Assembly (NCBI RefSeq): GCF_024448985.1 | Contig: NZ_JAMOII010000016.1 | Location: forward strand, 22,115 to 86,114 | DNA length: 64,000 bases | Origin: Stutzerimonas stutzeri | Lineage (GTDB): Bacteria; Pseudomonadota; Gammaproteobacteria; Pseudomonadales; Pseudomonadaceae | Direction: 5' to 3' | Shown: in pieces, positions 5,084-16,651 of the stretch | Position numbering within the stretch: position 1 is the first letter of the stretch | Layout: each line of letters starts with the position of its first letter | Made by a program: the position numbers and the translations under genes | Notes under the pieces: generated by a model | The model's input: only the letters and a program-made list of their open reading frames with translations | Database searches by the model: none | What the model was told of the DNA's origin: nothing

Positions 5084-6289
5084 TCAGGTGACAGCCTCGT
5101 GCCAGGAGCCAAAGGGGTCGGGAAGTCGCTCCCAAGTCTGCACGCCCGCGGCCATCTCCTGGTCGTCGAGCAGGCAGGCATCCAGTTCCGCGCTCAGTCG
5201 TTCGAAATCGATGTTCTGACCAATGAAAACCAGCTCCTGCCGGCAGTCGCCGGTCTGGACGTCCCAGTGCTTGAGAATTTCCTGCATCCCCTCATCATCA
5301 GTGGGCCATTGTGTCTTCGGTACGAAGCGCCACCAACGCCCCGCCAGACCATGGCGCATCAGACCACCGGCCTGGGACCAGCTACCGGCCTCTTGGTGCT
5401 TGCTCGCAAGCCAGAAGAAGCCCTTGGAGCGCAGCAGCTTGCCATTGCTCCAGTCACGGATCAGAAATTCATGGAAACGCTGCGGATGGAATGGCCGACG
5501 CGCACGATACGCGGTTGAGGCGATACCGTACTCCTCGCTTTCGGGCACGTGCTCGCCCCGTAGCTCCTTGAGCCAGCCTGGCGCTTGAGCGGCACGCTCG
5601 AAATCGAAGCGGCCGGTATCCAGGATATTGCCCAGCGGCACCTGGCCCATGCTCATCGGAATGATTTCAGCGCGCGTATTGAGGCCGCGCAGGATGGCAG
5701 TCAGCTCTTCACGTTCGGCGCTGGAAATCAGATCAATTTTGCTGATCAGGATGACGTCGGCGAACTCTACTTGTTCAATCAGCAGATCGGTAATAGAGCG
5801 TTCATCCTCTTCGCCCAACGTCTCGCCGCGGCTGGCCAAGCTCTCCGCTTCGTGGAAATCAAGGAGAAAGTTGACCCCGTCGACCACCGTGACCATGGTA
5901 TCCAGGCGCGCGAGGTCGGACAGGCTCCGCCCCTGATCGTCGCGGAAGGTAAAGGTCTCGGCCACCGGCAAGGGTTCCGCGATGCCGGTGGATTCGATCA
6001 GCAGGTAGTCGAAACGGCCTTCGCGAGCCAGGCGACTAACCACCTCCAGCAGATCTTCGCGCAAGGTGCAGCAGATGCAGCCGTTGCTCATTTCCACCAG
6101 TTTCTCTTCGGCACGATTAAGGCTTACGTCGCGTTGTACTTCGCTGCCGTCGATGTTGATTTCGCTCATGTCGTTGACGATCACCGCGACACGACGGTTC
6201 TCGCGGTTCTTCAGCACATGGTTGAGGAGCGTGCTCTTGCCGGCGCCAAGAAAGCCGGACAGTACGGTGACGGGAAGTCGATCAGTCAT
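5084..6289 (-). CDS. zigA: COG0523 zinc-responsive GTPase (ZigA-type metallochaperone)
   Basis: 401 aa G3E-family P-loop GTPase. The Walker A motif GFLGAGKST is at residues 12-20. The metal-binding CxCC motif is at C71, C73 and C74 ([12 protein letters not shown]), followed by [13 protein letters not shown] and a SKIDL guanine-specificity motif. A CobW C-terminal domain occupies roughly residues 270-395. Family members bind zinc and are thought to load it into client enzymes during starvation. It lies 10 bp downstream of dksA2, in the same direction, the pairing I recall from the Zur-regulated region of P. aeruginosa. The start at 6289 directly precedes the P-loop strand and has a GGGGGAG-like region upstream. 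The symbol rests on context and the CxCC motif, so another COG0523 subgroup remains possible. Confidence 0.82.
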
Positions 6290-6299
6290 AGGGGGAGCC

Positions 6300-6704
6300 T
6301 CAAGTCTCACGTAGATGTTTCTCTTTCTTTTCCTGCCGCTCCTTGGCCTCGATGCACAACGTCGCAGTAGGTCGCAGCAACAGGCGGCGCAGACCGATCG
6401 GGTCGCCGGTTTCCTCACACCAGCCGTATTCGCCGCGGGCCAGGCGCTCAAGTGCCCGGTCAATCTTGTCGAGCAGCTTCTTCTCACGTTCGAGCAGGCG
6501 TAGCTGCCACTGTCGCTGCTCCTCCGTACTACCGATATCCGCAGGATCGCTGCTCGGCTCGTGATCGCGTAGTTCATCGAACTCGCTCGTGATTCGCTCC
6601 TGCAGCTCACGACGCTCGGTCAGCAGCAGTTCGCGAAAGAACGCCTGCTGCTGTTCGCTCATGTATGCGCTGGAGGGTTGCTGAAGCAGTTCCTGCTCAG
6701 TCAT
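6300..6704 (-). CDS. dksA2: Zinc-independent RNA polymerase factor DksA2
   Basis: 134 aa DksA/TraR-family protein. It has the long coiled-coil N-terminal half with the acidic DPAD tip (residues 53-56). The zinc-finger region has only two of the four canonical cysteines: C96 and C117 are kept, but the other two positions are T99 and A120, with the C-x2-C-x17-C-x2-C spacing preserved. This replacement is the published hallmark of P. aeruginosa DksA2, which works with ppGpp on RNA polymerase without zinc. It is the first gene of a dksA2-zigA unit reading away from the Zur-box candidate at 6841. The start at 6704 (MTEQELL) matches the family N-terminus; an ATG at 6740 is possible but adds unrelated residues. 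Confidence 0.88.
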
Positions 6705-6840
6705 GGGTGGCACCAATGATCGATTGAGACGACACGACATCCATAAATCCGCTCTCTGACGTTCTTCTTGATAAAGGCGTTTGGCATACCTGCTGGGCTA
6801 CGGGTGGGATCCCATCAAGGGTGTCGCCCAGCTAGACATT

Positions 6841-6853
6841 GTTATGATATAAC
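6841..6853. promoter_or_regulatory. Candidate Zur box between dksA2 and rpmE2
   Basis: GTTAT-GAT-ATAAC inverted repeat in an AT-rich context (ATT before, ATTTG after). The arms and 3-base centre resemble Zur operators of gammaproteobacteria. It lies between divergent genes that are both known zinc-starvation functions (dksA2-zigA to the left, rpmE2 to the right), so one site could repress both directions. The same arrangement of arms recurs at 14047. Confidence 0.75.
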
Positions 6854-6901
6854 ATTTGCAGCCATATCAATCACACCCAACTCGAAATGAAGGAGCGGCT
6901 T

Positions 6902-7159
6902 ATGAAACCAGGCATCCATCCCGACTATCGTCCCGTCCTGTTCCACGACACGGCGGCGGACGTCTACTTCCTGATTGGCTCAACGGTCGAATCCAGCCGT
7001 ACGCACCAGCACACCGATGGCAATACCTACCCGTACGTGGCGCTCGACGTATCCAGCGCATCGCATCCGGTCTACACCGGCCAGCAACGCAAAACGACGT
7101 CCGAAGGCCGTATCGCGGGCTTCAACAAGCGCTTCGCAGGATTTACCACGAAGAAGTGA
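6902..7159 (+). CDS. rpmE2: 50S ribosomal protein L31, type B (zinc-free paralogue)
   Basis: 85 aa. It starts [16 protein letters not shown] and contains the type B signature DGNTYPYV and a basic end ([13 protein letters not shown]). It has no cysteine, so it lacks the zinc ribbon of the C+ form; cells swap it into ribosomes under zinc limitation to free zinc. The start is set by AAGGAG at 6891, five bases before the ATG; the ATG at 6887 lies upstream of that site. A Zur-box candidate lies 48 bp upstream. The TonB receptor gene begins 98 bp downstream, after a palindrome, so it may be co-transcribed. Confidence 0.93.
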
Positions 7160-7184
7160 TCGCACTTTTCACAACGCCAAGACG

Positions 7185-7208
7185 ATCCGCTCGAATATTC
7201 GAGCGGAT
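7185..7208. terminator. 24-bp perfect palindrome between rpmE2 and the receptor gene
   Basis: Two 12-base arms (ATCCGCTCGAAT and its complement) meet with no loop, 25 bases after the rpmE2 stop codon. No T-run follows, so it could be a partial terminator or processing site that lowers expression of the downstream receptor relative to rpmE2, or an operator. Which of these is not decided by the sequence. Confidence 0.45.
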
Positions 7209-7257
7209 AGCGCCCTAGCCCCCGATCACAATCATCCAAGCCACGGAAGACGCTTCA

Positions 7258-9219
7258 ATGTCCCGCAAGCCCCACCTTCTTACTGTCCGCACACCCGCCC
7301 GACTCGTTGCTGCCCTCGCCCTGCTACCTCTGGCCGCACTGGGCGCTGACCAGACCCTGAACTTCGAACCCACGGTCATCACCGCCACCTCCACGGTGCG
7401 CCAGCTGAGCGATGCACCCGCAAGCGTTACGGTCATCACCCGCAAGGAACTGAGCATGCGGCCCGTTCAGGATCTCGAAGATGCCCTGCGCGGCACGCCG
7501 GGGCTCCAGTTCACCGGCATTGGCATGACACGCCGTGGCGTCAGCATTCGTGGGATGGGAAGCGAGCACACGCTCGTACTGTTGAACGGGCAGCGCATCA
7601 ATACGGCCGCAGGCGCCGTGGCGCACGCCGATTTCGATCTGGGCTGGGTGCCGGTGGAGGCTATCGAGCGCATCGAGGTGATACGCGGCCCGATGTCCTC
7701 GCTCTACGGCTCCGAGGCGCTCGGGGGTGTGGTCAATGTGATCACACGGCGCGCTACGGACGCATGGCAGGGCGCGGCGCAGATCAACGGCGGCGTACGC
7801 GAGGACGGGCGCGGCGGCCAGACACACCAACTTGGGGCCTATGCCGGCGGCCCGCTTGTGCCTGGACTGCTCGGCCTATCCATGAGCGGCGAGACGCGGC
7901 GCCGCCAGGAAACGCCCTTTCACGACGATACCTCGCCGTCTGAGATCGAAGGCCGTGACGCACACAGCGGCGACATCACGCTGAGCTGGACGCCAGACAC
8001 CGCGCAACGCATCGACCTCAGCTATGCAAGCGGCCTGGAGGATCGCTGGCGCAACACTCGCAGTGCTGGACGCGCACCGGTGGAGTACGAGTCCAGCGAT
8101 CGCATCGAACGTGAGCGATTCTCCCTCGTCCATAGCGGCGACTGGGCGTGGGGCAGCAGCTCGCTGCGCGCCTACCGCAACACACTGGAGCGTACCAACC
8201 GCTATACCAACGGCGTGGTCCCCTCCTCGCCACGTCAGGAACTCACCGACGACATCGTCGATGGCAGCCTGACCCTGCCATTTGCCGACATGCACCTGAT
8301 CACGCTCGGCGGCGAGTGGCGCAAGGAGCAGCTGGAGGACGGCGGCTTTACGACAGGCGATGCCCGAATCATTCACCGTGCGCTGTTTCTGCAGGATGAA
8401 ATCCAGTTCAACCCGGCCTGGTCGCTGGTCCTGGGCAACCGCTTCGATCAGCACGAGGAATACGGCTGGCACAACAGCCCGCGTGCCTACCTGGTTCACC
8501 ATGTTAACGATGCCCTGACGATCAAGGGCGGCGGCGGCCGCGGGTTCAAGGCGCCCTCACTCAAGCAGCTATCGCCGGGCTATTCGGCCATCGGCGGCGG
8601 CGGGATGTTCAAGATTAACGGCAATCCGGATCTCGAACCCGAGATCAACACCATGTACGAAATCAGCGTGGACTATCAGGCAGACGGCTGGTCCGCGAAC
8701 GCGGGTGTCTTTCAGAACAACGTGCGTGGTCTGATCCAAACGGTCTGCGTATCGAGCTGTGGCGTTCGCGGCCAAGAAGTTCGCAACTACGACAACGTCG
8801 ACGAAGCGCGCATCCGCGGGCTTGAGCTAGGCGGCGGTGTAGATTTGCCCGCCAACCTGCGCTGGGACCTGAACTACACCTACCTCGACGCCATCGACCG
8901 CAGCGCCGACCGGCGCCTGGGTGATCGCGCGCGTCATCTGGCCAACACCCAACTCCAATGGACGCCGAACGCCACGTTCACCGGGCAGCTGCGTGGCGAA
9001 TACGTCGGCAGCCAGCTGACCTATTCCAGCAACACCGCCTATGCGGTGCCGGCCTACAGCCTGTGGCATCTGGAGCTGACGCAGCGGATTACCGACGCCC
9101 TGAGCATTCGCGGCGGCATCGAAAACCTGACCGACGAAGACTTCAGCGATGCGTCTGACAACTTCACCTTCGCCGAACCGGGCCGCACCTATCACGTCGG
9201 CTTGAGCCTGAGTTTCTGA
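7258..9219 (+). CDS. TonB-dependent outer-membrane receptor
   Basis: 653 aa. A long signal peptide of about 30 residues ends near LAALGA. A TonB box-like segment (EPTVITATST) follows, then a plug domain (about residues 50-165, with RGMGSEHTLVLLNGQR and IERIEVIRGPMSSLYGSEALGG) and a 22-strand barrel ending in the aromatic terminal residue GLSLSF. There is no striking histidine-rich loop like those of ZnuD. It ends 1 bp before the CobN-like gene, so the two are translationally linked. The location between rpmE2 and a CobN-like/ExbBD-like set suggests uptake of a metal or metal complex in zinc starvation; the ligand itself is not readable from sequence. I recall a similar Zur-controlled cluster around PA1922 in P. 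aeruginosa. Confidence 0.9.
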   Translation: MSRKPHLLTVRTPARLVAALALLPLAALGADQTLNFEPTVITATSTVRQLSDAPASVTVITRKELSMRPVQDLEDALRGTPGLQFTGIGMTRRGVSIRGMGSEHTLVLLNGQRINTAAGAVAHADFDLGWVPVEAIERIEVIRGPMSSLYGSEALGGVVNVITRRATDAWQGAAQINGGVREDGRGGQTHQLGAYAGGPLVPGLLGLSMSGETRRRQETPFHDDTSPSEIEGRDAHSGDITLSWTPDTAQRIDLSYASGLEDRWRNTRSAGRAPVEYESSDRIERERFSLVHSGDWAWGSSSLRAYRNTLERTNRYTNGVVPSSPRQELTDDIVDGSLTLPFADMHLITLGGEWRKEQLEDGGFTTGDARIIHRALFLQDEIQFNPAWSLVLGNRFDQHEEYGWHNSPRAYLVHHVNDALTIKGGGGRGFKAPSLKQLSPGYSAIGGGGMFKINGNPDLEPEINTMYEISVDYQADGWSANAGVFQNNVRGLIQTVCVSSCGVRGQEVRNYDNVDEARIRGLELGGGVDLPANLRWDLNYTYLDAIDRSADRRLGDRARHLANTQLQWTPNATFTGQLRGEYVGSQLTYSSNTAYAVPAYSLWHLELTQRITDALSIRGGIENLTDEDFSDASDNFTFAEPGRTYHVGLSLSF

Positions 9220-9220
9220 C

Positions 9221-12200
9221 ATGTCCAGTTGGATCAGAATCGGCGCGGCGCTAATCGCGCTGGCCGGCTGGGGAGCGACTGCGTTCGCCAATCCGGTACG
9301 GCAAGACATTCATGTACAGGTGCTGACGACCGACTTCGTCCTGCAGGGCAAGTTCGACCGGCTGGCGGGCTGGGCGGACCGATACGGTGTCACGCTCGAT
9401 ACCCTGCGCGTGTCCTCGGTAGCCACGCCGCAACACGGCACTGACGCGGACCTGCTGATACTGGACACGCCGCGCCCTGCGGACCTTGCGGCGGTCCAGC
9501 AGCAGTTCGACGCGCTAATCGCGAGGGGCACGCCTTGGATACGCGTCGGCGGGGGTTCGCCTGCCTTTGGCAACCTGCCTATGCCGGTCGCCAGGCGGTT
9601 GATCGGTTATTACGCTAACGGTGGCGAACAGAACCTCAGGGATCTGTTCGCCTACCTGCGAGCCTGGCACGACGACCTCCCCACCGACTCGATTCCTGCC
9701 CCTACGGAGCTGGGCAAGGTCGGCTTCTATCATCCCGACGCACCCGCGCCCTTTACAGAACTCGACGAATACCTCGCCTGGGGCGCCGATCGCTGGACGA
9801 AAGATGCGCCGCGTGTCGCCTTCGCCATTCACCGCGGTGCCATCGTCGATAGCCACTTGCAGTTGCTCGACGCGTTGATGAAAAGCAGCGAATCGCGCGG
9901 CCAGGCTCCAATCGCGTTCTGGATGGATGACAGGGACCCACAGGCGCTGAGCAAGGTGCTGATACCCGCACGCAGCGATGTGCTGGTCAACCTTCAGCAC
10001 ATGCAGAACGGTCCGGCACGTCAGGCAGAGTTTCTAGCACTTGGCATCCCGGTGCTGTCCACCCTGACCTGGCGGGAAGGTGATTTTGCGCATTGGCAAG
10101 CGTCCGATAGCGGTATCACGGCGCGAACCGCCGCGGCCATGCTGACCATCCCCGAAAGCTGGGGCATGACCGATCCGCTGGTGATCGCCGCCGTCGAAAA
10201 TGGCGAGCCGACCCCAATCCCCGAGCAAGTCGAGGCGCTGCTCGGCAAGGTCGACAGCCTGACCCGGCTGCGTCGGCTTGCCCCTGCGGAGAAACGTCTG
10301 ACGTTGATGTTCTGGAACCATCCCGGCGGCGAAAAGAACGTGGCCGCGTCCAACCTCAACGTGCCACGCAGCCTGGCGCGCCTCTCTATTGCGCTGCAGA
10401 CGGCCGGCTATGACGTGCCCGTCACGGGTGAGGCGCAGCTGATCGAAACGGCGCAGCGCCTGCTTGGCGGCTATTACCGGTCAGACACACTGGACGATCT
10501 GCTAGCCGACGGCCTTGCCGTGGCGTTGCCGCTGTCGGACTACCAGCGTTGGCTCGCAGATCTGCCGGCATTCAGACGCAAGGCATTACTCGAGCGATGG
10601 GGCGATCCGACTGACCATTGGGCGCTACGTGAAGTAGACGGCAAGCCTCATTTCATCATTCCCGCCGCGCGCCTCGGCAAGCTATTACTGCTGCCGCAAC
10701 CGCCGCGTGCTGGCCGTCCCGGCGAGGCCTATCACGACAGCAAGGTCGCGCCGGATCATCTCTATCTGGCCGCCTATCAAGCGCTGCGAGAGGTCTTTAA
10801 AGCCGATGCGCTGATTCACTTCGGCACGCACGGCACGCAGGAATGGCTACCCGGTAAGGATCGCGGCCTGGCCGCGAGCGACTACCCCTTCCTTGCGCTG
10901 GGCGATATGCCGGTGTTCTACCCCTACATTCAGGACAACATTGGCGAGGCCATACAGGCGCGCCGTCGCGGTCGCGCGGTCATCGTCAGTCACCAGACAC
11001 CGCCCTTTGCGCCCGCCGGGCTGTATGACGAGCTGCGCGACGTGCATGCGCTGATCCACGAATACCAGCAGCTTGACGAGGGCGCGGTGCGTGAAAACAC
11101 GGCCGAACGTATTCGTCGGTTGGCCTTGCAAAGCAAGCTGCTGGAAGACCTTGGCTGGGACGAAGCGCGCATGCGCGCCAATACCGGAGACTTCCTGCTG
11201 GCGTTGCATGATTACCTGCACGAGATGGCCCAGGCGAACTTGCCGCTCGGCCTGCACACCTTCGGCGAGCCTGCATCCGCCGAACACCGTCTGGCCACTG
11301 TGCTGCAACAGCTGGGCGAGCCCTACCTGCGTGCGCTGGAGCTGGCCGACGACGAGCCGATGGCCGAGGATTTCGCCGGACTGCAGGCCAGCCTTCCCTA
11401 TCGCACCCTGCAGCGTTATTTGCGCGAGGATGAAAGCCTTGACTCGATTACCGATACCGAACTGCGCGAGCAGATCGAACGCGCACGCGTGTTGGACGCC
11501 CGGCTGACCGACACAGGTGAAATGGAAGCGCTGCTGACCGGCCTTGCCGGCGGCTTCGTCGCACCCGGCCCCGGCGGCGATCCGGTGCGCAATCCGGACG
11601 TGCCAAGCGGTCGCAACCTCTACGCCTTCGAGGCCGACAAGTTGCCGACCCGAGCGGCCTATGAGGCAGGCGGCAAGGCACTGGAGCAACTGCTCGCGAG
11701 CTACCGTGATGAGCACGAAGGCGCATTGCCGACGAAGCTCGCCTTCAGCCTGTGGTCCTCCGAAGCCATGCGCCACCTGGGCATCCTCGAAAGCCAAGTC
11801 TTGCACGCACTGGGTGTACGTCCGGTTTGGGATGGGGGAGGACGGGTTCGTGCCCTGGAGATCATCCCGGCAGCGGAACTTGGCAGAGCACGCATTGATG
11901 TCGTCGTCCAGGTCACCAGCGTCTACCGCGATCAGTTCGATGGCTTCATGCGGCAATTGGCCGATGTGATGGAGCGGCTCGCCGTGCTGGATGAACCGGG
12001 CAACACGCTGGCCAGCAACAGCCGGCTGCTGGCCCAGCGGCTACAAGATCAAGGGGTCGATGCCGATCGCGCCGAGCGCTTGTCGCACTTGCGGCTGTTC
12101 GGTAACGAGCCCGGCGATTACGGCACCGGTGTTTCTCAGTTGACGATGGATTCCACACGCTGGGAAAACGATTCGCAGCTCGCCGAGCAGTTCCTCTCGC

Positions 12201-13096
12201 GGTTGCAATATGGCTACGGCACCGGCAGTTGGGGAGAGAAAATCGACGGCCAGAACCTGTTCGCCGAACAACTCAGGGGGGGCCAGGCCGCGGTCATGGC
12301 CCGCTCCAGCGAGCTCAACGGCGTGCTGTCGACCGACCATCCGTTCGAGTTTCTAGGGGGACTTTCCCTGGCGGTCCGCCATCTCAACGGTGCCAGCCCG
12401 TCGCTCTATATATCGGACCTGCGCAAGACCGAGCCCCGCACGACCGGCGCCGCGAGCTACCTCGCCAGTGAACTGCGCAGCCGCTACTTGAACCCGCAAT
12501 GGATCAGCGCAATGCAGCAGGAAGGCTACGCCGGCACGCTCGAGGTGTTGAACGTCGCCAACAACCTCTGGGGCTGGCAAGCCGCCGACCGCAGCATGGT
12601 TCGCGCCGACCAATGGCAGGCCCTGCATGACACCTTCGTAATGGACCAGCGCGAGCTTGGCCTCGATCAATGGTTCGAGGCACACAACCCCACGGCTCAG
12701 GCCCAGCTGATCGAGCGTATGGCCGAGGCGATCCGCAAGGGTTACTGGGATGCCTCCGATCAAACCCGACGCGAACTGGCCGAACGTTGGCAGGCGCTCA
12801 CCACTGGACATGGCGCCGATGCCGGCGAGCCGATTTCCCGAGACTTCATCGAACAGATGGCCGCCGGCTACGGCCTCGCGCCAACGGCCGCAACGCCCAC
12901 CTCTTCAAGCAACGTGGGCGCGGACGAGGCGGTGCGCGGCCAGGTGATGCAGGAAGTGGCTGAGCAACCGAGCGAAGCGCCGAACCCATGGCGGCTTCTG
13001 CTCGGCATCGCCGCGTTGCTGTCGTGCCTCGTACTTGGCGCCCTACTCCAAGCGCTCGCCAACCATCGCGTCGAGCCGATTTTTAATTCTCAGTGA
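9221..13096 (+). CDS. CobN-like protein, exported and C-terminally membrane anchored
   Basis: 1291 aa with the CobN / magnesium-chelatase H large-subunit fold. The family hallmark HFGTHGTQEWLPGK is at residues 533-546. Other conserved blocks are FYPYIQDNIGEAIQARRRG and, near the C-terminal third, NEPGDYGTGVSQL and LGGLSLAVRHLNG. True CobN is a cytoplasmic subunit of aerobic cobaltochelatase. This copy instead begins with a signal peptide (residues 1-23, ending ATAFA) and ends with a hydrophobic helix (LLLGIAALLSCLVLGALL) followed by a short tail, so I infer it is periplasmic and anchored in the inner membrane. No CobS, CobT or other corrinoid genes are near. It is joined to the receptor upstream (1 bp gap) and the ExbB-like gene downstream (10 bp gap). 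Confidence 0.88.
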   Translation: MSSWIRIGAALIALAGWGATAFANPVRQDIHVQVLTTDFVLQGKFDRLAGWADRYGVTLDTLRVSSVATPQHGTDADLLILDTPRPADLAAVQQQFDALIARGTPWIRVGGGSPAFGNLPMPVARRLIGYYANGGEQNLRDLFAYLRAWHDDLPTDSIPAPTELGKVGFYHPDAPAPFTELDEYLAWGADRWTKDAPRVAFAIHRGAIVDSHLQLLDALMKSSESRGQAPIAFWMDDRDPQALSKVLIPARSDVLVNLQHMQNGPARQAEFLALGIPVLSTLTWREGDFAHWQASDSGITARTAAAMLTIPESWGMTDPLVIAAVENGEPTPIPEQVEALLGKVDSLTRLRRLAPAEKRLTLMFWNHPGGEKNVAASNLNVPRSLARLSIALQTAGYDVPVTGEAQLIETAQRLLGGYYRSDTLDDLLADGLAVALPLSDYQRWLADLPAFRRKALLERWGDPTDHWALREVDGKPHFIIPAARLGKLLLLPQPPRAGRPGEAYHDSKVAPDHLYLAAYQALREVFKADALIHFGTHGTQEWLPGKDRGLAASDYPFLALGDMPVFYPYIQDNIGEAIQARRRGRAVIVSHQTPPFAPAGLYDELRDVHALIHEYQQLDEGAVRENTAERIRRLALQSKLLEDLGWDEARMRANTGDFLLALHDYLHEMAQANLPLGLHTFGEPASAEHRLATVLQQLGEPYLRALELADDEPMAEDFAGLQASLPYRTLQRYLREDESLDSITDTELREQIERARVLDARLTDTGEMEALLTGLAGGFVAPGPGGDPVRNPDVPSGRNLYAFEADKLPTRAAYEAGGKALEQLLASYRDEHEGALPTKLAFSLWSSEAMRHLGILESQVLHALGVRPVWDGGGRVRALEIIPAAELGRARIDVVVQVTSVYRDQFDGFMRQLADVMERLAVLDEPGNTLASNSRLLAQRLQDQGVDADRAERLSHLRLFGNEPGDYGTGVSQLTMDSTRWENDSQLAEQFLSRLQYGYGTGSWGEKIDGQNLFAEQLRGGQAAVMARSSELNGVLSTDHPFEFLGGLSLAVRHLNGASPSLYISDLRKTEPRTTGAASYLASELRSRYLNPQWISAMQQEGYAGTLEVLNVANNLWGWQAADRSMVRADQWQALHDTFVMDQRELGLDQWFEAHNPTAQAQLIERMAEAIRKGYWDASDQTRRELAERWQALTTGHGADAGEPISRDFIEQMAAGYGLAPTAATPTSSSNVGADEAVRGQVMQEVAEQPSEAPNPWRLLLGIAALLSCLVLGALLQALANHRVEPIFNSQ

Positions 13097-13106
13097 ACCG
13101 AAACCC

Positions 13107-13586
13107 ATGAATGCACTTGAAACCAGTCTCTACGAACTGACACGCATCTTTCTCGTACCCGTTCTGCTATTGATCCTGGCCGCGCTGGCTTATGCCTTTT
13201 TGGCATTGGGCAGCTTCGCCATGGAGGCCTGGCAACGCCGTAACGGCCGCTATCGTTCCGTCCTCGCCGCGCACCAAGCGGCAAACGGTGGCACCAGCGA
13301 TGACCTCGAGCTCTGGATCATGCAACGCCTGGAATGGCTGCGCGTAACCTCGCGCAGCGCGCCGATGCTGGGGCTGGTCGCGACGATGATTCCCATGGGC
13401 CCAGCCCTGCTGGCACTGACCCAGAGCGATGCAAAAGGCATCGGCGAGAATCTGGTGGTCGCCTTCTCCTCGGTGATCCTCGCGCTCATCGCAGCGAGCG
13501 TCACCTTCTTCATTCTCACCGTTCGGCGCCGCTGGCTGTTGCAGGAGCTGCGTGCCATCGAGCGCGCCGGGGTACAGTACCGATGA
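13107..13586 (+). CDS. Small MotA/TolQ/ExbB-family proton channel protein
   Basis: 159 aa, much shorter than ordinary ExbB or TolQ (about 230). Three membrane helices are visible: residues ~12-40 (VPVLLLILAALAYAFLALG), ~85-105 and ~118-145. The signature of the MotA/TolQ/ExbB domain is SAPMLGLVATMIPMGPALLAL followed by IGENLVVAFSSVILALIAA. Proteins of this family form the ion channel of energy-transducing complexes. It starts 10 bp after the CobN-like gene and its stop overlaps the start of the ExbD/TolR-like gene by 4 bp, so the two are a coupled pair probably energising the receptor or the CobN-like protein. Confidence 0.85.
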   Translation: MNALETSLYELTRIFLVPVLLLILAALAYAFLALGSFAMEAWQRRNGRYRSVLAAHQAANGGTSDDLELWIMQRLEWLRVTSRSAPMLGLVATMIPMGPALLALTQSDAKGIGENLVVAFSSVILALIAASVTFFILTVRRRWLLQELRAIERAGVQYR

Positions 13587-13906
13587 GATTTCTCGACCAT
13601 GACGACGACGATGACCCGCTGCTGTCAGTCGTCAACCTGATCGATTTGTTCCTGGTGGTGATCGGCATTCTGCTCATCGTCATCGTGCAGAACCCGCTCA
13701 ATCCATTCAGCCAGGAGAAGGTCGTGGTTATCGAAAATCCGGGCGAAGCGAACATGCGCATGCTGATCAAGGACGGTCAGGAGTTGAAGCAATATGAGTC
13801 GAATGGGGAAATCGGCGAGGGCCAGGGCGCCAAGGCTGGAATCACCTATCGCCTGAACGACGGAAGGATGATTTATGTGCCCGAGGAGAATGCATTGGTT
13901 AAGTGA
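13583..13906 (+). CDS. DUF2149 protein, likely a minimal ExbD/TolR partner
   Basis: 107 aa. Residues 5-11 are an acidic DHDDDDD run, then a single membrane helix at about 16-36 (VVNLIDLFLVVIGILLIVIV), then a short periplasmic domain. The helix lines up with that of the TolR encoded at 32711-33163 (VVPYIDVMLVLLVIFMV), placing D21 at the position of the protonatable aspartate of TolR/ExbD. It overlaps the ExbB-like gene by ATGA at 13583. The much longer in-frame extension upstream (to 13334) lies inside the ExbB-like gene and is rejected. The ExbD role is inferred from context and this alignment; the family itself is recorded as a domain of unknown function. Confidence 0.85.
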   Translation: MRFLDHDDDDDPLLSVVNLIDLFLVVIGILLIVIVQNPLNPFSQEKVVVIENPGEANMRMLIKDGQELKQYESNGEIGEGQGAKAGITYRLNDGRMIYVPEENALVK

Positions 13907-14046: not shown

Positions 14047-14059
14047 GTTATATTATAAC
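14047..14059. promoter_or_regulatory. Candidate Zur box upstream of the DUF1624 gene
   Basis: GTTAT-ATT-ATAAC has the same arms and spacing as the site at 6841, and AAAG-like flanks extend the symmetry. It is 35 bp before the DUF1624 start, where it would overlap the promoter. It suggests that the DUF1624-porin pair is a second zinc-starvation transcription unit. Confidence 0.7.
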
Positions 14060-14094: not shown

Positions 14095-15294
14095 ATGACT
14101 AACGCCGCCGCCACGATGCCCGCAGCCGGCACGCTTTCATCCCTTCATGCCAAGACGCAGGTACGCACGCGAATGCTTGCGATCGACGCATTGCGTGGGC
14201 TGGTCATGCTGTTCATGCTCGTCGACCACGTGCGGGAGACCTTTTTCCTGCACGTTCAGGTAGGCGACCCCATGGATCCGGTCAACACGCCACCTGAGCT
14301 GTTCTTCACGCGTATCAGCAGCATGGTCTGCGCACCGGTCTTTGTATTCCTGACCGGCCTTTCCGCATGGTTGTACGGGCAATCCCACAGCCGCAGCGAA
14401 GTGTCGACGTTCCTGCTCAAGCGGGGCGTATTCCTCGTGTTCCTCGAACTGACCCTGGTGAACTTCGCCTGGAACGCGACCTTCGTACCGCCGACCCTGT
14501 GGTTGCAGGTCATCTGGGCAATCGGCTTGAGCATGATCGTACTGTCCGCACTTATCCACATGCCGCGTGCCGCGCTGGCGGTGCTGGGCTTGGTGATCGT
14601 AGCCGGCCACAACCTGCTCGATGGCATCGTGCTCACAGCGGATTCGCCATTCTTCGAGATCTGGTCGATCCTGCACCAGCGTTCCTTTATCGAAATCACC
14701 GAGCACACGCGTGCACGGACCACTTACCCCATCCTGCCCTGGATCGGTCTCATCGCGCTTGGCTACTGCGCCGGCCCCTGGTTTGCCCGCGATGCCGATC
14801 CGGCGCAGCGTGCCCGCCGCCTGTTGATGTGGGGAGTCGGTTTGCTCGTGGGTTTCGTCCTGATCCGCTACCTGAACGTTTATGGCGACAAGCCCTGGAG
14901 CGCCATGGAAAACGGCGTGCGCACCTTCATGAGCTTCATGTCGCTTACCAAATACCCGCCTTCCCTTATGTTCCTGATGCCAACCATCGCCGTCGGCTTT
15001 CTGCTGCTCGCCTGGTTTCAGCAACTCGAAGGGCGTCCCGTGCTGAAGGTGCTTTCGCTGTATGGCGGCGCGCCGATGTTCTTCTATGTCCTTCACCTGC
15101 TGGTACTCAAGGCGCTTTACCTGATCGCGGTGCAGATCTGGGGTCTGAATCAAGGCAACTACTACGGCTTCGATAGCCTCGCCGGTATCTGGCTATGGGC
15201 TGTGATGCTGTCGGCAGCACTTTATTTTCCGACCCGCTGGTTCGCGCAGCTCAAGCAGCGCCGTCGCGATATCGCCTGGCTGAAATACTTCTAA
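14095..15294 (+). CDS. DUF1624 / heparan-alpha-glucosaminide N-acetyltransferase-like membrane protein
   Basis: 399 aa integral membrane protein with about ten helices. The family signature comes early: RMLAIDALRGLVMLFMLVDHVRETF at residues ~22-46 (read as two blocks around the conserved RG and DH). A conserved lumen-type histidine occurs in VLHLLVLKAL near residue 330. Distant relatives move an acetyl group across a membrane to a sugar amine; the bacterial substrate is unknown. A Zur-box candidate lies just upstream and the frameshifted porin gene starts 9 bp after its stop. Together with the porin it may form a second envelope unit in the zinc-starvation response. Confidence 0.8.
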   Translation: MTNAAATMPAAGTLSSLHAKTQVRTRMLAIDALRGLVMLFMLVDHVRETFFLHVQVGDPMDPVNTPPELFFTRISSMVCAPVFVFLTGLSAWLYGQSHSRSEVSTFLLKRGVFLVFLELTLVNFAWNATFVPPTLWLQVIWAIGLSMIVLSALIHMPRAALAVLGLVIVAGHNLLDGIVLTADSPFFEIWSILHQRSFIEITEHTRARTTYPILPWIGLIALGYCAGPWFARDADPAQRARRLLMWGVGLLVGFVLIRYLNVYGDKPWSAMENGVRTFMSFMSLTKYPPSLMFLMPTIAVGFLLLAWFQQLEGRPVLKVLSLYGGAPMFFYVLHLLVLKALYLIAVQIWGLNQGNYYGFDSLAGIWLWAVMLSAALYFPTRWFAQLKQRRRDIAWLKYF

Positions 15295-15303
15295 GGCTTG
15301 GTG

Positions 15304-16651
15304 ATGAACAGGAAAACCAGTTATTGGATGCGGGTGATGTCGCTTTCATGCCTGCCATTGGCGGCGTGTGCTGGCGCACAGGAGCAGGCGGCCGGTTTCA
15401 TCGAAGATGGCACATGGAACGTGCTGAACCGCACCGTCTACGACCGTCGTGATTACCGCCACGGCGGGCTCAACGGGGCCGCGCGCAATGCAGCTAAACC
15501 GCGCGGCGAGCGCAGTGACCTGGCGGAGGAATGGGGCTACGGGCTGATGGGCAGCTACGCCTCTGGGTTCACCCAAGGCACGGTCGGCTTCGGCCTCGAT
15601 GCCCACGCCTATCTGGGGGTAAAGCTGGACAGCGGCGGTGGGCGCGCTGGCAAGGCTCGTCTGCTTTCGGTGGATAACGAGGGGCATCCCAAGGATGACT
15701 ATGGGCGCGCTGGTGCAGCGGCGAAGCTGCGTCTGTCATCCACAGTGCTGAAATACGGCGAGCAACGAGTGAAGACGCCCGTCTTCGGTTCGTCCGACAG
15801 CCGCCTATTGCCCGAAACCGCGACGGGGTGGTGGGTAACCAGCCAGGAATGGAGTGACGTGACCCTCAACGGCGGTCATTTCACCGAAAGTACCGACCGC
15901 AATGCCAGCAGCCACGAGCGTGGGTTCGTCGTGAACTACTCCAACGGGAGACAAGGCGACTCGTTCGACTTCCTGGGCGGCAGCTATGACGGCATGGAGC
16001 GCCTCGACCTTCGTCCTTTACAGCGCACAATACGACGAAACCTGGCGGCAGCATTACCTGGGCGGTGTGTACGCATGGCCGATCGATGACGAACAGGCGT
16101 TGTCCTTTAACCTGAATCTCTACCGCACACAGGACACCGGCGAAGCACGCTCGGGCGCTATCGACAACACGACCTGGAGCCTGATGAGTACTTACTTGCA
16201 CGGTGCCCATCGCTTTTCGTTGGGCTACCAGAAGGTGCATGGAGATACGCCGTTCGATTACGTCACCCGCGGTGCCATCTACCTCACTAACGCGGTGGCG
16301 CTGTCTGACTTCAACGGGCCGAATGAAGCCTCATGGCAACTACGCTATGACCTGGCGATGGCCGCATACGGCATCCCCGGCTTGAGTTTCAGCGCAGCAT
16401 ATATTCGCGGCAGTGGCATCGACGGTAGCGATGTGGACCCCAGCGGTGGCTATGCCTATTTGGGCTACGGCCGTAACGGACGGCACTGGGAGCGTGACCT
16501 GGAAGCCCGTTACGTCGTACAAAACGGGGCCGCCCAAGGGATGACCTTCAGCGCCCGTTATGCAGTGCATCGGGGCAACACCGATCAGGCGGAATTGGAC
16601 GCCGACCAGATTCGCTTGGCGGTCGAGTATCCCATCCAAGGAACGTTCTAG
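15304..16651 (+). pseudogene. OprD-family porin, frameshifted
   Basis: Two overlapping frames together give one OprD-type porin of about 448 aa. The first (from 15304) has a signal peptide and the mature start AAGFIEDGTWNVLNRTVYDR, then RDYRHGG and TQGTVGFGLDAHAYLG. It is homologous until FDFLGGSY near 15987. Homology continues in the +1 frame (TAWSASTFVLYSAQYDETW onward) to the barrel end AVEYPIQGTF at 16651. Compared with the intact porin at 42300, 19 residues separate the SY and the next aromatic anchor in both if one base at 15988 is treated as an insertion. As written, translation runs to a stop at 16089 and truncates the barrel. It may be real decay or a sequencing error. Confidence 0.85.

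Follow-up and report, generated by a model that had tools for sequence, protein, structure and literature searches.

The class I chelatases CobN, ChlH and BchH are cytoplasmic proteins that insert metal, and the CobN and ChlH reactions are driven by ATP through AAA+ ATPase partners (CobS/CobT or ChlI/ChlD). An exported protein of this fold is described in Bacteroidota, where the six-gene hmuYRSTUV operon encodes a TonB-dependent receptor (HmuR) and the heme de-chelatase HmuS, which is membrane-anchored with a periplasmic body, together with a MotA/TolQ/ExbB protein (HmuU) and a DUF2149 protein (HmuV) (PMC12583661, PMC10434189). In Pseudomonas aeruginosa, Zur binding and induction by zinc starvation are published for the operon PA1922–PA1925, which has been under discussion since 2015 with its function unknown (PMC4542158); its central protein, PA1923, is presented as a cobaltochelatase or as part of a Zn/Co import system, and HmuS goes unmentioned in the accessible parts of that literature. 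Here we describe a unit that joins the two systems, found in a stretch of 64,000 nucleotides of Stutzerimonas stutzeri (assembly GCF_024448985.1, contig NZ_JAMOII010000016.1, positions 22,115–86,114, forward strand), hereafter the window, to which all coordinates of this locus refer. We give roughly even chances to its being a Zur-controlled periplasmic metal-stripping module, the zinc-starvation counterpart of HmuR-S-U-V, acting perhaps on Zn-porphyrins.

The unit contains four genes on the forward strand, whose tight packing, noted in a preliminary description of this DNA, is confirmed by the coordinates. A gene for a CirA-like TonB-dependent receptor (7258–9219; 653 residues, PF00593/PF07715), in the position of HmuR, is followed after 1 bp by that of an exported, C-terminally anchored CobN-fold protein of 1291 residues (9221–13096; PF02514) in the position of HmuS. 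After a further 10 bp comes a small ExbB/TolQ-like channel protein (13107–13586; 159 residues, PF01618; HmuU position), which overlaps by 4 bp (ATGA) the gene of a DUF2149 protein (13583–13906; 107 residues, PF09919; HmuV position), a minimal ExbD-like partner. The four genes very probably form an exported HmuS-like module. The operon is not new: by its published description, PA1922–PA1925 is alike in the four gene types, in their order (receptor, CobN-like, “ExbD”, hypothetical) and in Zur control. It differs from the S. stutzeri locus, where the gene rpmE2 separates the receptor gene from the Zur-type box, and dksA and zigA are adjacent; in addition, S. stutzeri has no second, classical CobN, whereas PA2944 is reported as such in P. 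aeruginosa. PA1920, in the vicinity of PA1922–PA1925, is presumably nrdD, and in another genus of the family (L260) the operon adjoins an anaerobic ribonucleotide reductase gene. The architecture has also been described already, as it resembles the HmuR-S-U-V of Bacteroidota, with HmuS a proven heme de-chelatase; the S. stutzeri unit differs from hmuYRSTUV in having no HmuY or HmuT, in its CirA-like receptor and in a Zur-type instead of an iron control. The preliminary description held the mechanism to be undescribed, a claim that does not survive the report of HmuS as an exported fold beside both motor genes (EMBO J 2025, PMC12583661) and of the operon itself in P. aeruginosa (PMC4542158). 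What is new is the union of both systems, the regulator/residue pattern across branches of the family and the finding that the motor genes track the chelatase gene; in a limited literature search these were not found in print, and neither was a link of a PA1922–PA1925-type operon to HmuS or Zn-porphyrins.

The match to PF02514 covers residues 129–1182 of the CobN-like protein (995.5 bits). Its closest solved relatives are HmuS (9d26, 443 bits), CobN (379 bits) and ChlH (349 bits), and the order is the reverse for a classical CobN of the genus (1137-residue part; CobN 1226 bits, HmuS 325 bits). It is the sole PF02514 protein of the genome, where the best matches to the models for CobS (TIGR01650, 24.3 bits, cut-off 558.6) and for a ChlID-type subunit (TIGR02442, 27.2 bits, cut-off 779.5) fall far short, CobT itself not having been searched for; the absence of cob genes, first remarked for the neighbourhood, thus extends to the whole genome as regards the chelatase. 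The reading of the protein as a true cobaltochelatase subunit rests on the model NF004644, named “cobaltochelatase subunit CobN”, which it matches with 2026 bits (cut-off 1248). This curated name looks wrong, because exported proteins of the family score between 1449 and 2026 bits (L155, 8492–12352, 1692 bits; L040, 7231–11211, a non-Zur exported protein, 1449 bits) and a classical CobN of the genus just 597 bits, below the cut-off, the latter being recognized by TIGR02257 with 1690 bits. The C-terminal anchor, the lack of a CobS or ChlID-type partner over the cut-off in the genome, the placement in a separate clade and a His in place of an Asp in the active site (see below) also speak against a true CobN, which we consider hardly credible.

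The protein family was sampled in 58 genomes, that of S. stutzeri included and mostly from the genus, 28 of which hold PF02514 proteins, and a tree was built from 143 sequences after removal of three short open reading frames (ORFs; two pieces of L142 and one of L148) and six identical sequences. In the genus, besides the classical CobN, there are three exported kinds, each adjoining mini-motor genes. These are the Zur kind, to which the S. stutzeri protein belongs, a second, non-Zur kind (L040–L043) and a long kind (L044–L048) located directly behind a cobalamin riboswitch. In the tree, the Zur kind forms a clade of 21 members (support 0.98) and the long riboswitch kind one of 84 (0.979), some deep nodes being weak (0.43). 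A mixed set of 23, called “B” here, comprises 15 proteins of the non-Zur exported type, L157/L158, L154/L214, L149, the HmuS orthologue L215 and two BchH. HmuS itself pairs with L215 (support 1.0), from a Pseudomonadales genome, the S. stutzeri protein being in another clade. The C-terminal membrane segment, at residues 1259–1277 in S. stutzeri, is found in 19 of the 21 Zur-branch proteins and in none of 14 classical CobNs, in agreement with the CobN fold facing the periplasm, as first proposed. Of the two topological signals then claimed, the anchor is thereby upheld, and the signal peptide (MSSWIRIGAALIALAGWGATAFA followed by NP) was read by eye; a crude 12-mer hydropathy value of 1.92, under the threshold of 2.2, does not bear it out, with classical CobNs reaching up to 2.01. 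The hydropathy threshold, which did not separate the S. stutzeri protein from classical CobNs, was dropped as a discriminator.

Alignment to HmuS places the key residues at H260, H533, H537, E576, D1039, H1040 and E1043, and counterparts exist for HmuS H254, H538, E577, D1208, H1209 and E1212. The HxGxH loop, which is common to the classical chelatases along with the fold, is present as HFGTHG, in line with the HmuS motif HFG(T/A)HG; in it, H537 corresponds to HmuS H538 and is a His in 21/21 Zur-branch members. The second position, HmuS H1209 (H1040 here), separates the family: it is His in all 20 readable Zur-branch members, in HmuS, in L215 and in both BchH, and Asp in 14/14 classical CobNs, in 84/84 riboswitch-branch proteins and, likewise, in three solved CobN chains that were inspected. 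Around it, the strict HmuS motif LSLDHxxEFMGG is unmatched, the sequence here being LSTDHPFEFLGG, and the D-H-x-x-E core is intact in 20/20 readable Zur-branch members; S1030 is retained among the cavity residues as well. The heme ligand H254 of HmuS corresponds to H260 in an ungapped HMMER alignment, with His in 19 of the 21 Zur-branch members, the exceptions being L207 and L208 (Phe). In Zur-branch loci fetched later, a His at the H254 position and the DH..E motif are each present in 22/22. His would thus mark porphyrin-handling members and Asp those that handle corrins or are regulated by them, a pattern behind which stand few families of known substrate. It hints at a porphyrin-type substrate for the S. 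stutzeri protein, a possibility to which we give less than even odds. The two Phe-bearing members of the Zur clade, L207 and L208, also have no Zur-type box and perhaps changed their metal or substrate.

The unit is almost certainly under Zur control. A Zur-type box, GTTATGATATAAC (6841–6853), is located between rpmE2 and the divergent dksA-like and zigA genes. The rpmE2-like gene (6902–7159, forward strand; PF01197; NF002462, 125 bits, above the cut-off) encodes ribosomal protein L31 of type B, the zinc-independent type of paralogue. On the reverse strand, the dksA-like gene (6300–6740; TIGR02420, 132 bits, above the cut-off) has the box region in common with it, and the ORF at 5084–6610 contains zigA, a zinc metallochaperone GTPase (NF038288, 686 bits, above the cut-off, the match starting at ORF residue 112). 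The unit as first drawn should be extended upstream by rpmE2 and the box, a common transcript being predicted. In the 4.23-Mb genome, the exact pattern GTTATNNTATAAC is confined to two sites, both within this island, the second (GTTATATTATAAC, 14047–14059, an exact match on both strands) being upstream of the gene that starts at 14095. Four more places have one mismatch; of the two that were judged, by eye, one precedes a gene for a His-rich ZnuD-like receptor and the other is beside a zinc-type ABC/DUF2796-like locus. The neighbours, the box and the published Zur control of PA1922–PA1925 all point to use in zinc starvation, as the preliminary description had surmised.

Across the family, this locus has an upstream Zur-consensus score of 14/16. 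Within 4.6 kb upstream, a best score of at least 12/16 is reached in 18/21 Zur-branch loci, 10/82 of the riboswitch branch (two of the 84, with less than 600 bp upstream, being excluded), 3/23 of the mixed set and 0/14 classical CobN loci; the Zur-branch counts come mostly from one family and are not independent. With p-values from order-1 Markov resamples, which are not exact dinucleotide shuffles, p ≤ 0.01 is attained by 15/21 Zur-branch and 0/14 classical loci. Among the loci fetched later, 21 of the 22 in the Zur branch reach 12/16 and 19 have p ≤ 0.01 (Markov resamples), and of eight non-Zur exported loci one reaches 12/16 and none has p ≤ 0.01. Genes for L31 (7/21), DksA (5/21) and ZigA (3/21) are found near Zur-branch loci, compared with 0/107 near the others. 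The recurrence of the parts, stated at the outset, is borne out by PA1922–PA1925 and by the later-fetched family loci, in which all four genes are together in 30/30, these loci having been picked by their CobN-like gene. The possibility of a stray foreign gene was dropped, since a copy with 92–94% identity is found in two further Stutzerimonas genomes and the neighbours are zinc-starvation genes.

The riboswitch branch (L044–L048, L069–L148, L159–L163) has members in records of Gamma- and Betaproteobacteria, Campylobacterota, Nitrospina/Nitrospiraceae and Myxococcota. Its operons share with the Zur-branch unit the exported CobN fold and the accompanying motor genes, ExbB-like and DUF2149-type. 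They differ in that the protein is longer, the second active-site residue is Asp, the receptors are BtuB-like where tested and a cobalamin riboswitch lies upstream in the same orientation, which nhmmer detected in 73/84 loci compared with 0/21 in the Zur branch. The nhmmer model was seeded with 22 Rfam hits, all 22 of which it recovered; Rfam itself was applied in 35 locus-searches and showed no cobalamin riboswitch in the 7 of the 21 Zur-branch loci that it covered. This branch may be the corrinoid-linked counterpart of the Zur-branch module, and hmu-like operons with a cobalamin riboswitch are reported in Bacteroides fragilis (PMC10100974). These data bear on a further explanation, in which the module takes Co2+ from corrinoids, or aids Co2+ import, with cobalt substituting for zinc. 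It is suggested by the reports that zinc starvation of P. aeruginosa is eased by cobalt, which also acts as a repressor of the Zur regulon there (PMC13083405), and that cell cobalt is raised in a znuA mutant (PMC4542158), but the His where the corrin-linked kinds have Asp, the absence of the riboswitch from the Zur branch and a receptor that is not BtuB-like make this improbable.

The two small proteins were first described as an ion-driven motor pair belonging to the unit, a view that is supported. The ExbB-like protein has a weak match to PF01618 (MotA_ExbB; 27.3 bits, cut-off 22.9), and its partner matches PF09919 (DUF2149) with 99.4 bits. The earlier label of TolR/ExbD-like is loosely right for the latter: PF02472 (ExbD) does not match it, the four PF02472 places of the genome being other genes, yet its membrane Asp21 is invariant in 108/108 alignment rows and is equivalent, by eye, to the Asp of ExbD. 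A profile comparison for ExbD homology was not significant and is void, as three of the four ExbD sequences were in the wrong frame or strand. When DUF2149 alone was searched in 398 Pseudomonadota genomes, 18 hits in 17 genomes were obtained, and a CobN-like gene is near every one of them (18/18), at a distance of at most 0.6 kb in 17 and of 2.1 kb in L149. Among fully flanked riboswitch-branch loci, the motor genes are present in 62/64, a TonB receptor within 5 kb in 19/64 and a motor without receptor in 45/64; for the receptor count, 64 of 83 riboswitch-branch loci were kept, those with less than 5 kb on either side being excluded, and for the motor count, loci with less than 700 bp downstream and eight loci outside the tree classes were excluded. 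Conversely, Marinobacter L115 and L116, of the riboswitch branch, have an adjoining receptor and no ExbB-like or DUF2149 gene that was found nearby. The motor genes therefore track the chelatase gene, not the receptor, which suggests that the chelatase draws its power from the ExbB-like/DUF2149 pair and not from an AAA+ ATPase. The HmuS reaction is reported to need no ATP, and the purified enzyme to halt after 1–2 turnovers, for which its authors list missing cofactors among the possible causes (PMC12583661). We consider the odds that the motor drives the chelatase to be even.

The pair could instead be a dedicated TonB energiser of the receptor, the CobN-fold protein stripping the chelate without a motor. 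This is how the authors of HmuS assign HmuU and HmuV, which they draw powering HmuR, and purified recombinant HmuS converts heme, if weakly, without these motor proteins (PMC12583661); the receptor is also next door in 22/22 of the later-fetched Zur-branch loci. An energiser of receptors would, however, fit poorly with the many riboswitch-branch motors that have no receptor, with the two motorless Marinobacter loci that have one, and with the lack of any DUF2149 gene away from CobN-like genes in the 398 genomes, and the S. stutzeri genome already has four ordinary ExbD/TolR-family proteins. We regard this alternative as rather unlikely.

The receptor scores 425 bits with the CirA model (cut-off 745), 225 bits with the vitamin B12 receptor model and 205 bits with the heme receptor model. 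The ranges for three Zur-branch receptors are 387–425, 208–225 and 205–230 bits, respectively, and the vitamin B12 (BtuB-like) model is the best one for 4/4 riboswitch-branch receptors tested (275–479 bits); all these values are below the curated cut-offs. Their nearness to catecholate-siderophore receptors suggests that the Zur-branch receptors may import the zinc complex of a non-tetrapyrrole metallophore, from which a re-purposed CobN-fold protein would take the zinc. Against it, the family members of known function all act on tetrapyrroles (PMC12583661), the cavity residues H537, D1039, H1040, E1043 and S1030 are retained, and no neighbouring gene stood out as one for metallophore synthesis, though no search was aimed at such genes. 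We consider this route unlikely. Zn-porphyrins do exist as a possible source, since a bacterium is reported to make Zn-coproporphyrin III, and those who discovered the compound propose that its secretion plays a part in acquiring trace metals (PMC6104308).

A working scheme for a Zur-controlled stripping module would be as follows. Low zinc would relieve Zur repression and the rpmE2-receptor-chelatase-ExbB-DUF2149 unit would be transcribed. The CirA-like receptor would carry a zinc chelate, most likely a tetrapyrrole, across the outer membrane, and the anchored CobN-fold protein would grip it between H537 and H1040 and free Zn2+ to the periplasm for ZnuA-type carriers. The ExbB-like/DUF2149 pair would drive or reset the chelatase by means of the proton gradient, a proton motor replacing CobS/CobT or ChlI/ChlD because there is no ATP outside the cytoplasm. 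The stripping direction, zinc as the metal handled, the type of ring and the motor coupling are elements that we infer. The preliminary description had offered metal or metallophore import or metal stripping; of these, stripping is the best fit, given that no solved protein is closer than HmuS, a heme de-chelatase, and the metallophore and cobalt routes are kept as rivals. De-chelation is somewhat favoured over insertion. A bolder formulation, in which a periplasmic de-chelatase powered by the proton motive force pirates zinc from Zn-porphyrins on a chassis re-targeted by exchanging its regulator, its receptor and a single active-site residue (Zur, CirA-like and His for zinc; cobalamin riboswitch, BtuB-like and Asp for corrinoids; and, for iron, His with a heme receptor), is speculative and appears doubtful as a whole.

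Several observations weigh against the stripping of zinc from porphyrins by such a module, in addition to what is reported of HmuS and its motor proteins. The receptor is CirA-like, not heme-like, and gives no pointer to porphyrins. In the aligned CobN-like protein, Met79 of HmuS is without counterpart and the Met-rich insertion (domain IV) is absent, HmuS residues 711–922 facing about 46 residues here, so that the protein is not a member of the HmuS family by the published criteria. A MAFFT alignment puts HmuS H254 opposite L258, two columns off H260; the HMMER alignment was followed. The sister of the Zur branch in the tree is not HmuS but the non-Zur exported type, which has Asp, and the His common to the Zur branch and HmuS may therefore be ancestral or convergent. 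As the Zur-branch members are one lineage, the link between regulator and residue is essentially a single event. On the side of regulation, a reversed-pattern control gives 15 matches at up to one mismatch, more than the 8 that the Zur pattern itself yields, so weight can be given to exact matches alone; p ≤ 0.01 is also reached by Zur-type boxes in 3/82 riboswitch-branch and 3/23 mixed-set loci, and three of the 21 Zur-branch members (L202, L207 and L208) are below 12/16.

The strongly zinc-regulated PA1922–PA1925 operon has stayed unexplained since 2015, its central protein bearing the name of a cobaltochelatase. Its reading as an exported module of the HmuS type provides a testable activity and corrects the database name, and the stop of HmuS after its first turnovers becomes experimentally addressable via the motor. 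If the motor does power the chelatase, this would add a new function to those of motors of the ExbB type, and Zn-tetrapyrroles would be a zinc source to seek.

Other members of the family deserve mention. Among archaea, Methanosarcina acetivorans, which served as a control, gives matches to both PF02514 and DUF2149. L215 (5781–12450) is an orthologue of HmuS from outside Bacteroidota, accompanied by a heme-type receptor; the hemoglobin/heme model is the best one for this receptor (321 bits, below the cut-off), and some 180 bp upstream of its ORF there is a site with a Zur-consensus score of 15/16. L154 (8419–12369) and L214 (6701–10636) are very divergent exported relatives with Zur-type boxes of 12/16 and 13/16 (p 0.01), in which the HxGxH loop, universal elsewhere in the family, is replaced by SLFSN, so that a different chemistry is to be expected of them. 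In some loci of the second exported kind (L040–L043), weak Fur-like sites are found upstream of the receptor genes. Fur control of these loci and their kin was not retained as a result, with 4/23 mixed-set loci reaching p ≤ 0.01, and is kept as a hint, iron control being suspected.

Within the window, a perfect 24-nucleotide palindrome without a T tract is found on the forward strand between rpmE2 and the receptor gene (7185–7208). The RNA fold of 7150–7262, which spans it, has a z-score of −3.15, and no terminator was called at the palindrome, which is a possible attenuator or RNA processing site. A sigma-70 scan of 6700–7300 gave no promoter-like site. Behind the second Zur-type box there is a gene for an HGSNAT-type membrane protein (14095–15294) and, next to it, an OprD-family porin gene (15298–16651). 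The latter is split into two ORFs in overlapping frames, 15298–16089 and 15986–16651, which correspond to PF03573 profile positions 1–193 and 191–393, respectively, indicating a frameshift or a sequence error.

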